Positions 29,663 through 34,980 of a DNA stretch of 64,000 bases are shown here, piece by piece (the first letter of the stretch is position 1; each line of letters opens with the position of its first letter). Below the pieces are notes generated by a model, which saw only the letters and a program-made list of their open reading frames with translations, did not search any database and was not told the DNA's origin. Origin of the DNA: Lysobacter arenosi (GTDB lineage: Bacteria; Pseudomonadota; Gammaproteobacteria; Xanthomonadales; Xanthomonadaceae); assembly GCF_016613475.2 (NCBI RefSeq), contig NZ_CP071517.1, positions 3,646,001-3,710,000 of the forward strand. Direction: 5' to 3'. Made by a program: the position numbers and the translations under genes.

Positions 29663-29821
29663 TTACACGAACCCGTACCCCGCGCTGGCATGCCCGGTAA
29701 TAAGTACGAGTACAAGAATGAGTGCCGCCGATGCGGTCAGGGTCAACGCAAGTCGCAGCGACTCGACCGTGCCTTGCGGCCGGGCCTGAGCGGTCTGCGG
29801 GTGGTTGTTGCGCTGCGTCAT
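29663..29821 (-). CDS. ilvL: ilv operon leader peptide
   Basis: A 52-residue reading frame upstream of ilvD. It starts MTQRNNHPQT and holds a dense run of regulatory codons in AALILVLVLITG (residues 33-43): four Leu, two Val and two Ile within eight consecutive codons (34-41). In attenuation, ribosome stalling on these codons when branched-chain aminoacyl-tRNAs are scarce would leave the next RNA segment (29685-29678) free to pair with the terminator's 5' arm. A ribosome reaching the stop would cover it and let the terminator form. No Shine-Dalgarno sequence precedes the ATG, and the inferred transcription start is at or within a few bases of it. The central part is hydrophobic enough to be a membrane helix. 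Confidence 0.88.
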   Translation of the reverse strand: MTQRNNHPQTAQARPQGTVESLRLALTLTASAALILVLVLITGHASAGYGFV

Positions 29822-29839
29822 GGAACCGAGGTAAACATG

Positions 29840-29863
29840 CCCGGCGCGGGCATGTCAACAGTT
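29840..29863 (-). promoter_or_regulatory. ilv leader promoter with palindromic spacer
   Basis: On the minus strand AACTGTTGACA (29863-29853) gives a perfect -35 hexamer TTGACA. Eighteen bases further lies a weak -10, TTACCT, about 7 bases before the leader ATG. The spacer is almost filled by the perfect palindrome ACATGCCCG-CGC-CGGGCATGT (29855-29835), a possible operator. Transcription would begin around 29821-29823. Confidence 0.65.
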
Positions 29864-29897
29864 TCGTATGAAACAGCGCGAGGTTGCGACGAGCGGC

Positions 29898-31184
29898 TCA
29901 TCGCTTCAGCAATCGCTCGCGCAGTGCACCGTAATCGACGGCAAGGGACTCCGCAAAGGCAGGCCACGAAAGGGTTTCCGCCAATGCCGGCGGCGGCTCG
30001 ACGGCATCGCCGACGAGCGGCTCGACGATGGTCTCGAACTTGGCCGGGTGGGCCGTCGCCACCACGGCCCAGGGGCGACGGTCGCCTTGTGCTCTCAATT
30101 GCTCGAGCACATGCAGGCCGGTGGCGGTGTGCGGGCAGGGCACGATGCCATGGCGCCGTGGCGCCTCGCCGATGGTCGCGGCGATGGTGGCATCGTCGAC
30201 CGCGAATGCCTTCAAGGCGCTGCGCAACTGCGCGTCGTCGTCGTGCCAGTAGCGCAGCCGTTCGAAGTTGCTGGGCGCGCCGACATCCATGGCGTTGGCC
30301 AAGGTCGCGCGCGTTGCCTGCGGTGCGTAGTCGTCACCGGCGAAGTAGCGTGGCAGCACGTCGTTGGCGTTGCTGGCCAGCACCAGTTCGCCAATCGGCA
30401 AACCCATGCGCCTTGCGAGGAACGCCGCGCAGGCATTGCCGAGGTTGCCAGTAGGGACGATGAAGTTCAGCGGCTGGCCGTTGCGCGCGAAGAACTCCAG
30501 CGCTGCGTGCGCGTAGTAGCCGACCTGCGGCAGCAGGCGACCGAGGCTGATGCTGTTGGCGGAACTGAGGGACATCGACTGCCGCAGCGCTTCGTCCGAC
30601 AGCGCCTGCTTGGCCAGTCGCTGGCAGTCGTCGAAGCTGCCGGCGACGCGGTAGGTGCGCACGTTGGCGCCCCAGCATTCCAGGCCATGCGCCTGCCGCG
30701 GCGAGACGCGGCCTTCGGGGTAGAGGATCACCACCTCAAAGCCAGGACGGCGGTGGAATGCAGCGGCCACGGCCGCGCCGGTGTCGCCCGACGTCGCTAC
30801 AAGGATCGTCGTCGGCGGTGCGTCCTGCGGACGCAGCCGCGACAACGACTCGGCCAGGAAGCGCGCGGCGTAGTCCTTGAACGCGGCTGTCGGCCCGTGG
30901 AACAGCTCGAGAAGATGGTCGCCCTCGCCCGTCATTTCGCGCAGCGGCGGCGGGAAGGAATAGGCGTGTTCGCAGATTGCCGCCAGCGACTCGCGCAGGG
31001 ACGAATCCGCGAAGTACGGTGCCAACACCGCGTGCGCGGTATCGGCCAGCGTGGCCCCGGGTTGCACGGCGGGCGTCGGGATCCGCTCGGGCACGTAGAG
31101 GCCGCCGTCGGGAGCGAGTCCGGCGACGAGGGCCTGGTCGATTGATGTGGGAGGTGTGTTGCCGCGTGTGCTGTTGAAATTCAT
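29898..31184 (-). CDS. thrC: Threonine synthase
   Basis: The protein has 428 residues. A PLP enzyme that converts phosphohomoserine to threonine. The N-terminal threonine-synthase domain begins [14 protein letters not shown]. The PLP lysine is in [15 protein letters not shown] at about residue 108, and the phosphate loop region is [15 protein letters not shown] at about 134-148. [19 protein letters not shown] at about 240 is another family block. Length and pattern fit the Gram-negative long form. The ATG at 31184 overlaps the thrB stop (ATGA). It is the last gene of thrLABC. Its product is the substrate of IlvA in the neighbouring operon. No U-run terminator is seen between its stop and the ilv promoter 40 bases away. 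Confidence 0.97.
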
Positions 31185-32176
31185 GGGTTCAGCACATCCG
31201 CGCGCGGGCCCGCCACCGGCGTGACGTACGCGCGCGAGCCGTACCCTGCCTGCGCGAACGCGGCCTGCATCGCCGGCGCCGCCGCTTCCGCTTCGGCCCT
31301 CGACGCAAACCACGCGAACGTGCTCGGCCCGGCTCCGGAAATACTGGCGCCCAATGCGCCGTGGTCCAGCGCCGCAGCCTTGGCCTCGACGAAGCCCGGA
31401 ATCAGCGGCGCGCGACGCGGTTCCACCAGCAGGTCGTGCAGGCCTTCGCGCAGCAGCGACGCATCGCCGCGCTGCAACCCGGTCAGGAACAGCGCCAGGT
31501 GCGAGCTTTGCTCGACCACGAGCGACAACGGGTACGGTTCGGCCAGCACTGCACGGGCGCGTCGCGTTTCGAGCATCTGGTCGGGATGGACGACCACCGC
31601 GTGCAGCCACTCGGGCACCGCCAGCGGGATCATCCGCGTGGCCGTGGCCATCACCACGCCACCGAGCAGCATCGGCGCGACGTTGTCGCCGTGACGACTG
31701 CCGCTCGACACCGACTCGCCGTCGAGGGCGAACTCGTACAGCGCTTCACGCGGCAGTGGCGCGTCGAGCAATGCGTTGGCGGCGACGAGCGCGGCCACGC
31801 AGGAGGCGGCCGAGCCGCCGAGGCCGGAGCCGAGCGGGATGCCCTTCTCCAGTTCCAGCTCGAAGCCGAAATCCAGCCCAAGCCGTGTCCGCAGCGAGAT
31901 CAGCGCCTGGCCGGCGGTGTTGCGCGAAGCCTCAAGCGGCAGCGCTTCCGCGCCGGCGACGTTGCCGCGGATCGCCGCGATGCGCACTTCCGGCAGGGCT
32001 ATCCGGCGCACCTGCGCGATGTCGCGCACACCGGCGATGGAGTGCCCGAGCAGGTCGAAGCCGACGCCGATGTTGCCGACGCTGCCCGGTGCGAATGCCC
32101 GGCACTCCAGGCGCCGTCCGTGCGCGGTCGCATCCGAAGCCGTCTCGATATCAATCTTCGTAGAAGCAGCACTCAT
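31181..32176 (-). CDS. thrB: Homoserine kinase
   Basis: The protein has 331 residues. A GHMP-family kinase that phosphorylates homoserine. [19 protein letters not shown] near residue 28 is the N-terminal GHMP motif. The ATP loop is [18 protein letters not shown] at about 113. The third motif is [15 protein letters not shown] at about 283. All are intact. The ATG at 32176 overlaps the thrA stop, and its own stop overlaps the thrC start, both as ATGA, so stoichiometric translation of the pathway is likely. An N-terminal extension of about 20 residues ([20 protein letters not shown]) precedes the core. Confidence 0.97.
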
Positions 32177-34722: not shown

Positions 34723-34752
34723 GGCTCGGGCTCCTTGTGGGCCCCGCTTCCG

Positions 34753-34829
34753 GTCCGGGTGCACACCTGCGCACCCGGGTCGGGTGCGGAGGCGTGGTCT
34801 GGTTCAACTGGACACGCCCGTCCGCACCC
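34753..34829 (-). promoter_or_regulatory. thr leader attenuator: four mutually exclusive RNA segments
   Basis: Reading the minus-strand RNA, segment 1 is GGGTGCGGA (34829-34821, inside the leader frame), segment 2 TCCGCACCCG (34790-34781), segment 3 CCGGGTGC (34778-34771) and segment 4 GCACCCGG (34762-34755). Pairings 1:2 (9 bp), 2:3 (7 bp, loop ACC) and 3:4 (8-10 bp, loop AGGT) are all possible. This is the classical attenuator topology. Unlike the ilv leader, hairpin 3:4 has no U run after it. It is followed by ACCGGAAGCGGGGCCC, so Rho or a translational effect may be involved. Confidence 0.7.
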
Positions 34830-34938
34830 CGAAAGGAGTGGTACCGGTACCAGTGGTAATCGCAATGGCCACGACCGCTACGTCCCGGTGTTCAACCGGG
34901 ATGGGCAGGGTCTGCGGCGGCATGTTGCGATGCGTCAT
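34804..34938 (-). CDS. thrL: thr operon leader peptide
   Basis: A 44-residue reading frame starting [10 protein letters not shown] and holding the regulatory stretch [11 protein letters not shown] (residues 24-34), with five Thr and two Ile codons, recalling the Thr/Ile-rich E. coli thrL peptide. A ribosome stalled at residues 33-34 would cover RNA segment 1 (34829-34821) and free segment 2 to pair with segment 3. There is no Shine-Dalgarno sequence before the ATG. A TTGACA box lies exactly 31 bases upstream, as in ilvL. The first 33 bases from three bases before the ATG match the ilvL start at 28 positions. Confidence 0.87.
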
Positions 34939-34950
34939 GGAGGCGAGAGA

Positions 34951-34980
34951 AGCACGCGGTTTCCGCGGCTGTCAACAGTT
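34951..34980 (-). promoter_or_regulatory. thr leader promoter
   Basis: AACTGTTGACA (34980-34970 on the minus strand) gives a consensus -35. A weak -10, TTCTCT, lies 18 bases downstream and 7 bases before the leader ATG. The spacer contains the dyad CGCGG-AAA-CCGCG (34967-34955). The 11-base box and the 31-base distance to the start codon are identical to the ilv leader. Confidence 0.65.

Follow-up and report, generated by a model that had tools for sequence, protein, structure and literature searches.

A segment of the Lysobacter arenosi chromosome, 64,000 nucleotides (nt) of NZ_CP071517.1 from 3,646,001 to 3,710,000, carries on its minus strand the thrABC operon and, directly after it, an ilv operon that opens with ilvD and ilvC. 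The whole segment is referred to as the window, and all coordinates below are window positions. Each operon is preceded by a short leader open reading frame (ORF), starting at ATG 29821 before ilvD-ilvC and at ATG 34938 before thrABC. The two leaders are probably ribosome-dependent attenuators built on one old leaderless start cassette of about 67 nt, and would have evolved separately afterwards. The cassette and the leader ORFs comprise the following elements.

29853..29863, minus strand: ilv copy of AACTGTTGACA, with the -35 box TTGACA at 29858-29853
29829..29837, minus strand: ilv extended -10, TG at 29837-29836 and hexamer TTACCT at 29834-29829; spacer 18 nt, 7 nt to the ATG
29663..29821, minus strand: ilv leader ORF, 52 codons, predicted leaderless; ATG 29821, stop 29663, control run LILVLVLIT at 29722-29696
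34970..34980, minus strand: thr copy of AACTGTTGACA, with the -35 box TTGACA at 34975-34970
34946..34954, minus strand: thr extended -10, TG at 34954-34953 and hexamer TTCTCT at 34951-34946
34804..34938, minus strand: thr leader ORF, 44 codons, predicted leaderless; ATG 34938, stop 34804, control run ITTGTGTT

Likeness of the two leader starts

A first-pass annotation of the window had pointed out that the two leaders share the 11-mer AACTGTTGACA, a distance of 31 nt from TTGACA to the ATG, weak -10 hexamers (TTACCT and TTCTCT) that each end 7 nt ahead of the ATG, and 28 of 33 bases around the start, and that the peptides diverge after residue 10. All of this was found again, the 33 bases being counted from TCC-ATG onward. 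Both promoters also have the TG of an extended -10, a feature that had gone unmentioned.

The 11-mer occurs in two exact copies in the whole genome of 3,947,892 bases. Two of 100 shuffles of the window reach at least two matches when one mismatch is allowed, so that the 11-mer by itself is near chance in the window; the strong tests of likeness are taken to be those made genome-wide and with profiles. The pattern TTGACA-N14..15-TGNTNNNNT-N6..8-ATG is found at these two sites only in 3.95 Mb, and the reversed pattern nowhere. A profile of 66 ilv starts from relatives, from which the same-genus rows had been removed, recovers the window ilv start at E 3.9e-17 and the thr start at E 3.1e-16, the next match being at E 0.41. 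A sequence-only model built from ilv starts alone (R1, see below) finds the thr copy of this genome at E 4.9e-15, and the two copies are its only matches here at E 0.05 or better. A role of the cassette as the general leader start of this genome was rejected on this count of two. The other amino acid leaders of the genome thus have no recognizable copy, the his, trp and phe operons themselves not having been located. Copies at his, trp, leu and phe operons, which the first-pass annotation had proposed to look for, are not recognizable here by R1; leuA-ilvE leaders with the cassette occur elsewhere.

Leaders in related genomes

The comparison covered a family set of 198 genomes from 54 genera. 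The regions upstream of thrA and of ilvC or ilvD were collected by protein match, regardless of the cassette, and loci with a strict pattern (TTGACA, 27-35 nt, ATGACNNNNCGNAA) were added. ThrA matched in 135 genomes, of which 90 were used (39 of 40 genera; g5 was omitted); ilvC matched in 139 genomes and lay inside the fetched loci in 84. A leader was called where TTGAC stands 29-33 nt before the ATG of a Thr-rich or a Leu/Ile/Val-rich ORF, and leaders so chosen number 76 in 90 genomes for thr and 77 in 92 for ilv. The alignment of ilv starts, A1, contains 68 of the 77, and R1 was built from these 68. Nine starts with odd first residues (g5, g10, g19, four of g23, g43 and g50) were left out by eye, and some departing starts (MTPRT, MQDHH, MKSSR) were retained, so the column counts given below are those of 68 chosen rows.

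The scan for box, distance and ATG that had been proposed with the first-pass annotation finds the strict pattern in 42 of 198 family genomes and 14 of 54 genera; the reversed control gives none, and the matches in genomes G064 and G118 look unrelated. In every one of 12 same-genus genomes R1 detects a pair of strong matches separated by about 5 kb, further ones having E values of at least 0.007, and the nine same-genus genomes of the family scan each have two matches as well. Family-wide, at E 0.002, it matches 120 of 198 genomes and 33 of 54 genera, mostly once. At thr it scores above 43 bits at 20 of 90 thrA loci, which belong to 6 of 39 genera (g1, g20, g13, g6, g9 and g52), and 17-33 bits at five more. 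A further genus, g26, has the cassette before a Thr-rich leader whose peptide opens MPQRN.

Order-wide, at E 0.001, R1 matches 85 of 299 genomes, 21 of them outside the family. In 17 of the 19 of these that were fetched there is a leader of the same geometry; 11 of these leaders open with MTQRN or MSQRN, and the rest are similar. Four of the 17 were checked for the gene that follows: two precede ilvD-ilvC and two precede leuA and ilvE. In genome G213, a leader with MSQRI precedes ilvD. Judged from these matches, leaders of branched-chain genes (ilvD, ilvC, leuA-ilvE) commonly begin with the cassette, both within the family and in two further families. Its distribution suggests that it is old and belonged to branched-chain leaders first; at thr it is present in a minority of genera.

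The box, its distance to the ATG and the peptide N-termini, whose lack of conservation in relatives would have told against the original observation, are all conserved. The "duplicated start cassette" postulated from the window stands as far as a conserved cassette is concerned; it is not specific to the pair, being common at ilv and leu leaders and strong at thr in 20 of 90 loci.

A third cassette-like promoter was observed at loci L263 (G005), L354 (G057) and L355 (G052), before a leader ORF with W, F, Y and C residues near its end, a tail AGxGHV and then a terminator-like hairpin. The next gene at L263 and L355 looks like one for a MarR-type regulator. At L356 (G095) the gene after a cassette-headed Thr-rich leader apparently opens with the homoserine dehydrogenase portion of ThrA and lacks the kinase domain (by eye, over about 130 nt).

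Origin of the thr copy

The thr copy of this genome agrees with its own ilv start at 37 of 53 positions, and with the ilv starts of other genera at 35.3 on average. For eight of 12 genomes, the own ilv start is not clearly a better match to the thr copy than the ilv starts from other genera are, which points either to copying that is old or to shared ancestry. The exceptions are G160 and G119 of g20, G194 of g29 and G005 of g6, where at most 15% of other-genus starts match as well. Recent gene conversion between the two copies was rejected for the present genome (37 of 53 against 35.3); it is possible in these four. The thr cassette looks like an old copy of an ilv start, and the data would fit old copying as well as a common origin followed by many losses at thr.

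The alternative is convergence: efficient leaderless initiation and a strong promoter would have been needed twice, and the same optimal sequence would have arisen twice. The conservation of ATGnnGCAnCGCnnC at the DNA level, described below, is what such a requirement would produce; most thr starts are not clearly nearer to their own ilv start than to others, and other thr leaders of the family keep the geometry and differ in sequence. However, the identity extends from the AACTG before the -35 box via the extended -10 to residue 10, which is beyond the needs of a start signal. Thr starts without the cassette agree with their own ilv start at a mean of 21.9 of 53 positions, against 30-40 for the 12 with the cassette, and the full promoter-start pattern occurs nowhere else in the genome. 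Convergence is on this evidence considered unlikely.

In some genera (g16, g33, g29 and g3, e.g. loci L070 and L081) the thr -35 region was seen to read TTGACGCAnCGCAC or nearly so. It resembles the leader start ATGACGCAnCGCAAC, which occupies a different structural place. The likeness of the start ATGACGCAnCGC to the thr -35 string TTGACGCAnCGCAC falls within the top 0.4-5% of NTGAC sites in the g33, g16 and g3 genomes and in six of seven cassette-free g29 genomes, the null including real starts. One idea is that ATGACGCAnCGC and TTGACGCAnCGCAC were one ancestral string, separated by an A/T change; against it, the leader lengths misfit a simple shift and no decayed promoter is seen upstream, both by eye.

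Promoter geometry and the start signal

In the 90 thrA upstream regions, 72 of 105 pairs of TTGAC and the ATG of a Thr-rich ORF (distances of 0-59 nt) lie 30-32 nt apart; the ilvD and ilvC sets peak at 30-31 nt, and with the control word CAGTT there are three pairs at thr, eight at ilvD and none at ilvC. The distance of 30-32 nt holds in most thr leaders, whether or not they have the cassette. No AGGA, GGAG or GAGG is found 4-18 nt upstream of any of the 153 called leader starts (0 of 76 thr, 0 of 77 ilv), in agreement with the earlier statement that the leaders have no Shine-Dalgarno (SD) sequence, and 73 of 75 thrA starts have one; a g3 genome yielded no thrA start under the rule used for these.

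In A1, TTGAC is present in 68 of 68 rows, the following A in 67, and the T and G of the extended -10 in 66 and 68. T-12 is invariant (68 of 68), T-7 is present in 67 and the C that precedes it in 61. The base at -11 is T in 54 rows and C in 14, and is never A. Among all called leaders, 75 of 77 ilv starts and all 22 thr starts of the MTH/MTQ type have the extended -10; of these 97 starts none has A at -11, and 89 have 6-7 nt from the hexamer to the ATG. Most of these -10 hexamers read T(T/C)nnCT. TATTGC was noticed to be frequent in thr promoters of other genera in the family.

The -35 box, a spacer of 17-18 nt and a discriminator of 6-7 nt place the predicted +1, by the usual promoter distances, at or beside the A of the ATG. 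This spacing, along with the lack of an SD in the called leaders, argues strongly that the leader mRNAs are leaderless.

The start is also conserved in its codons. M[TLSP][QH]R is matched by 82 starts (62 of 77 ilv, 20 of 76 thr). In all 82, codon 2 ends in G and codon 4 is CGC, and ACG is used in 61 of 61 Thr cases, 41 of which are ilv starts drawn from 13 genera; the thrA, ilvD and ilvC genes of the window use ACG for 23 of their 86 Thr codons and CGC for 101 of their 131 Arg codons. The sequences are related and these counts are therefore not independent. ATGnnGCAnCGCnnC is conserved as a nucleotide sequence, beyond the peptide alone.

Pairing of the 5' end with a downstream leader segment beats codon shuffles in 26 of 31 ilv, 7 of 8 cassette-thr and 20 of 24 other-thr genera, and is not better than with swapped partners (13 of 31, 3 of 8 and 12 of 24). 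Since swapped partners do equally well, no specific 5' end pairing is claimed.

Were transcription to begin further upstream, TTGACA would not be a -35 box and the leaders would not be leaderless. The start position is deduced from sequence, the lack of A at -11 in 97 of 97 extended -10 starts is unusual for a sigma-70 promoter, and the spacers of both window copies hold inverted repeats with arms of 8 and 5 nt, all of which would suit such an arrangement. It is improbable, however, given the constant 30-32 nt across genera, the near-invariance of TTGACA, TG, T-12 and T-7, and the 153 starts without an SD. Only six of the 77 ilv promoters and two of the 22 thr promoters of the MTH/MTQ type have spacer repeats with arms of at least 5 nt; their rarity led to their rejection as a conserved operator. 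That the whole cassette is an operator for a shared regulator, with the likeness of the peptides a side effect, draws on the related string TTGACGCAnCGCAC at the thr -35 of some genera without the cassette there, and is very improbable, since the ORFs remain open with their control codons in frame, the motif is bound to the start codon, and R1, at E 0.05 or better, finds nothing beyond the two copies in the genome, where a regulator site might be expected elsewhere.

Two proposed outputs: terminator and SD switch

The elements downstream of the two starts are as follows.

29677..29685, minus strand: ilv antiterminator arm GCGCGGGGT in the leader tail (codons SAGY), with 9 base pairs (bp) of complementarity to the 5' arm of the terminator
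29595..29634, minus strand: intrinsic terminator of the ilv attenuator, GACCCCGCGCC..GGCGCGGGG and a T run, -30.5 kcal/mol
27812..29560, minus strand: ilvD ORF, GTG 29560, the first gene past the ilv leader, followed by ilvC
34812..34831, minus strand: thr segment A, end of the leader ORF, partner B
34781..34800, minus strand: thr segment B, partner A or D (anti-sequestor)
34735..34753, minus strand: thr segment D (sequestor arm), partner B or the thrA SD
34720..34734, minus strand: thrA SD (AGGAG, its first A at 34735) and start codon ATG 34722
32173..34722, minus strand: thrA, followed by thrB and thrC

Segments A, B and D are based on an alignment of thr leaders (A2) and a swapped-genus test, described below.

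The ilv leader peptide is MTQRNNHPQTAQARPQGTVESLRLALTLTASAALILVLVLITGHASAGYGFV. The separate tuning of stalling codons and RNA structures that had been supposed in the first-pass annotation is borne out: LILVLVLIT goes with a terminator at ilv, and ITTGTGTT with a proposed SD switch at thr. A Leu/Ile/Val-rich run was a condition for calling ilv leaders elsewhere. The codons of the window run, in this GC-rich genome, were noted to be CTC ATT CTT GTA CTC GTA CTT ATT ACC (29722-29696, minus strand), and CTT ATT ahead of the last codons is kept in many related ilv leaders, by eye.

A hairpin with a T run follows 68 of 77 ilv leaders and stands before thrA after none of 76 thr leaders. The ilv tail can pair with the terminator 5' arm over 9 bp in the window, and in 48 of 66 leaders this pairing spans 7 bp or more. 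Compared with shuffled sequences, both leader RNAs have more stable folds (z -3.4 for ilv, z -3.9 for thr). Folding 35 mixed thr leaders as one alignment gave a poor result, and a swap test was used in its place: A2 comprises 75 thr leaders with segments A, B, C and D and the thrA SD, and the ten segment pairs were compared with other-genus partners in 30 genera. The own pairing beats the swapped one in 23 genera for A:B, in 25 for B:D and in 22 for D:SD. Among the remaining pairs B:C reaches 17, A:C 14, A:SD and B:SD 12 each, and C:SD 9.

A:B with D:SD (off) versus B:D with a free SD (on) would form a consistent switch for thr. The Thr codons sit just ahead of A, so that a stalled ribosome would cover this segment. 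Regulation apparently acts at transcription in ilv and at translation in thr. In window positions 27000-37000, the thr leader included, there is no Rfam match above the gathering score; the best match of RF00506 Thr_leader, 26.2 bits against a gathering score of 55, is sited at the ilv terminator, not at thr.

Model of regulation

Based on these findings, the following model is proposed. The leader ORFs would be translated from the extreme 5' end of the mRNA. The cassette would consist of the -35 box TTGACA, an 18-nt spacer and the extended -10 TGnT(T/C)nnCT, with +1 at the A of ATGnnGCAnCGCnnC or next to it. This unit is likely the ancestral start of ilv and leu leaders in the bacterial order and would have been placed before the thr leader later, copying being the simplest route, and retained in some genera including this one. 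The regions 3' of the cassette would then have evolved separately. A ribosome stalled at the Leu/Val/Ile codons of the ilv leader would leave GCGCGGGGT free to pair with the terminator 5' arm, and transcription would continue; without the stall, the ribosome would cover GCGCGGGGT and the terminator would form. In the thr leader, a ribosome stalled at the Thr codons would cover A, so that B:D forms and the thrA SD is free; with ample threonine, A:B would form, D would pair with the SD, and translation of thrA would be blocked. Of this model, the sequence features, their conservation, the missing SD, the terminators and the complementarities are observed, and the exact transcription start, the ancestry and direction of copying and the stalling logic are deduced from them.

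Several points weigh against this model. Of the 198 family genomes, 78 give no R1 match at E 0.002; they may lack the operon, the leader or only the cassette. The leader counts describe leaders so chosen, because the call rule demanded TTGAC 29-33 nt before the ATG, and no leader was called in 14 of 90 thr and 15 of 92 ilv genomes; seven of these 15 are same-genus genomes in which the fetched locus was probably too short. The transcription start is placed by inference from sequence. An identity of 28 of 33 bases around the start is by itself explicable by selection on a short signal, and the PQT that ilv and thr have in common at residues 8-10 is exact in no more than five of nine same-genus thr peptides. 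Because the thr starts are not clearly nearer to their own ilv starts, copying is unproven over shared ancestry or convergence; the presence of the cassette at thr is clustered, yet needs six changes on a quick ThrA tree of 90 rows. Two of the 68 ilv terminators (g2, g44) are distant from the leader and unlike the others in sequence, and the pairing of the ilv tail beats swapped genera in 16 of 24 only, which is weak support. A:D (20 of 30 genera) and C:D (19 of 30) are also above half and lie outside the switch model.

A bolder version is put forward tentatively, at a little short of an even chance. The promoter and a sequence-specific leaderless start would be one movable unit, with an order-wide ilv/leu ancestor, that was moved to thr and now serves two attenuator mechanisms; the non-canonical -10, never with A-11, and the RNA 5' end AUGnnGCAnCGCnnC would together form a dedicated signal for initiation without a 5' untranslated region.

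Neighboring genes

Family matches identify ilvD, ilvC, thrC, thrB and thrA. Further genes past ilvC are probably ilv and leu genes, judging by their translations. The nearest named relative by ThrA is Lysobacter prati, with 89% identity. An element resembling a thiamine pyrophosphate (TPP) riboswitch lies at 35050-35149 on the plus strand, divergent from the thr leader, and scores 46.4 bits against a gathering score of 54.3.

Comparison with known systems

The attenuator appears to be built from parts, with one start module and two outputs. The same 15-nt start is kept as DNA across genera while the peptide beyond it varies, and this provides a natural test of what the 5' end of a leaderless mRNA needs, ATGnnGCAnCGC being the start stretch at issue. 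For Lysobacter and related bacteria the model predicts that thrABC is controlled at translation, by a leader that in the window has no Rfam family.

The shared leaderless cassette of the thr and ilv pair had been regarded as the new feature. This was too broad, as ilv and leu leaders broadly share the cassette, and leaderless attenuator leaders as such are already known from Sinorhizobium and Streptomyces. The literature search turned up no start cassette common to thr and ilv leaders or to leaders of different pathways, and neither leaderless leaders nor SD-sequestering thr attenuation in this group, an earlier description of either being possible.

Transcription attenuators of the E. coli type have control-codon leader peptides before thrABC (Rfam RF00506 Thr_leader) and before ilv genes. 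The present leaders are alike in having control codons before the same genes, and differ in that they have no SD, thr has no terminator, and neither reaches an Rfam gathering score.

The attenuator RNA rnTrpL of the Sinorhizobium meliloti trpLE(G) genes has its 5' end at the ATG of trpL, which encodes the peptide peTrpL, and undergoes ribosome-dependent termination (PMC7298713). It resembles the present leaders in starting at the leader ATG. It differs in serving one operon and tryptophan, and no start cassette shared between pathways is named in the passages considered (PMC7298713). In Streptomyces lividans, leuL, trpL, ilvL, metL and thrL are leaderless leader peptides that occur with or without a terminator (PMC8079986), as is the case here, where a terminator is likewise present in some only. 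These belong to Actinobacteria, show no common N-terminus by eye among the peptides quoted, and include a thrL that lies ahead of thrS (PMC8079986). The T-boxes of ileS are SD-sequestering translational attenuators, in which the regulated gene has its SD hidden by a hairpin and an anti-sequestor competes with this hairpin (PMC1262725), as proposed here for thrA. The switch is set there by tRNA binding (PMC1262725), whereas in the thr leader it would be set by the ribosome on the leader peptide.

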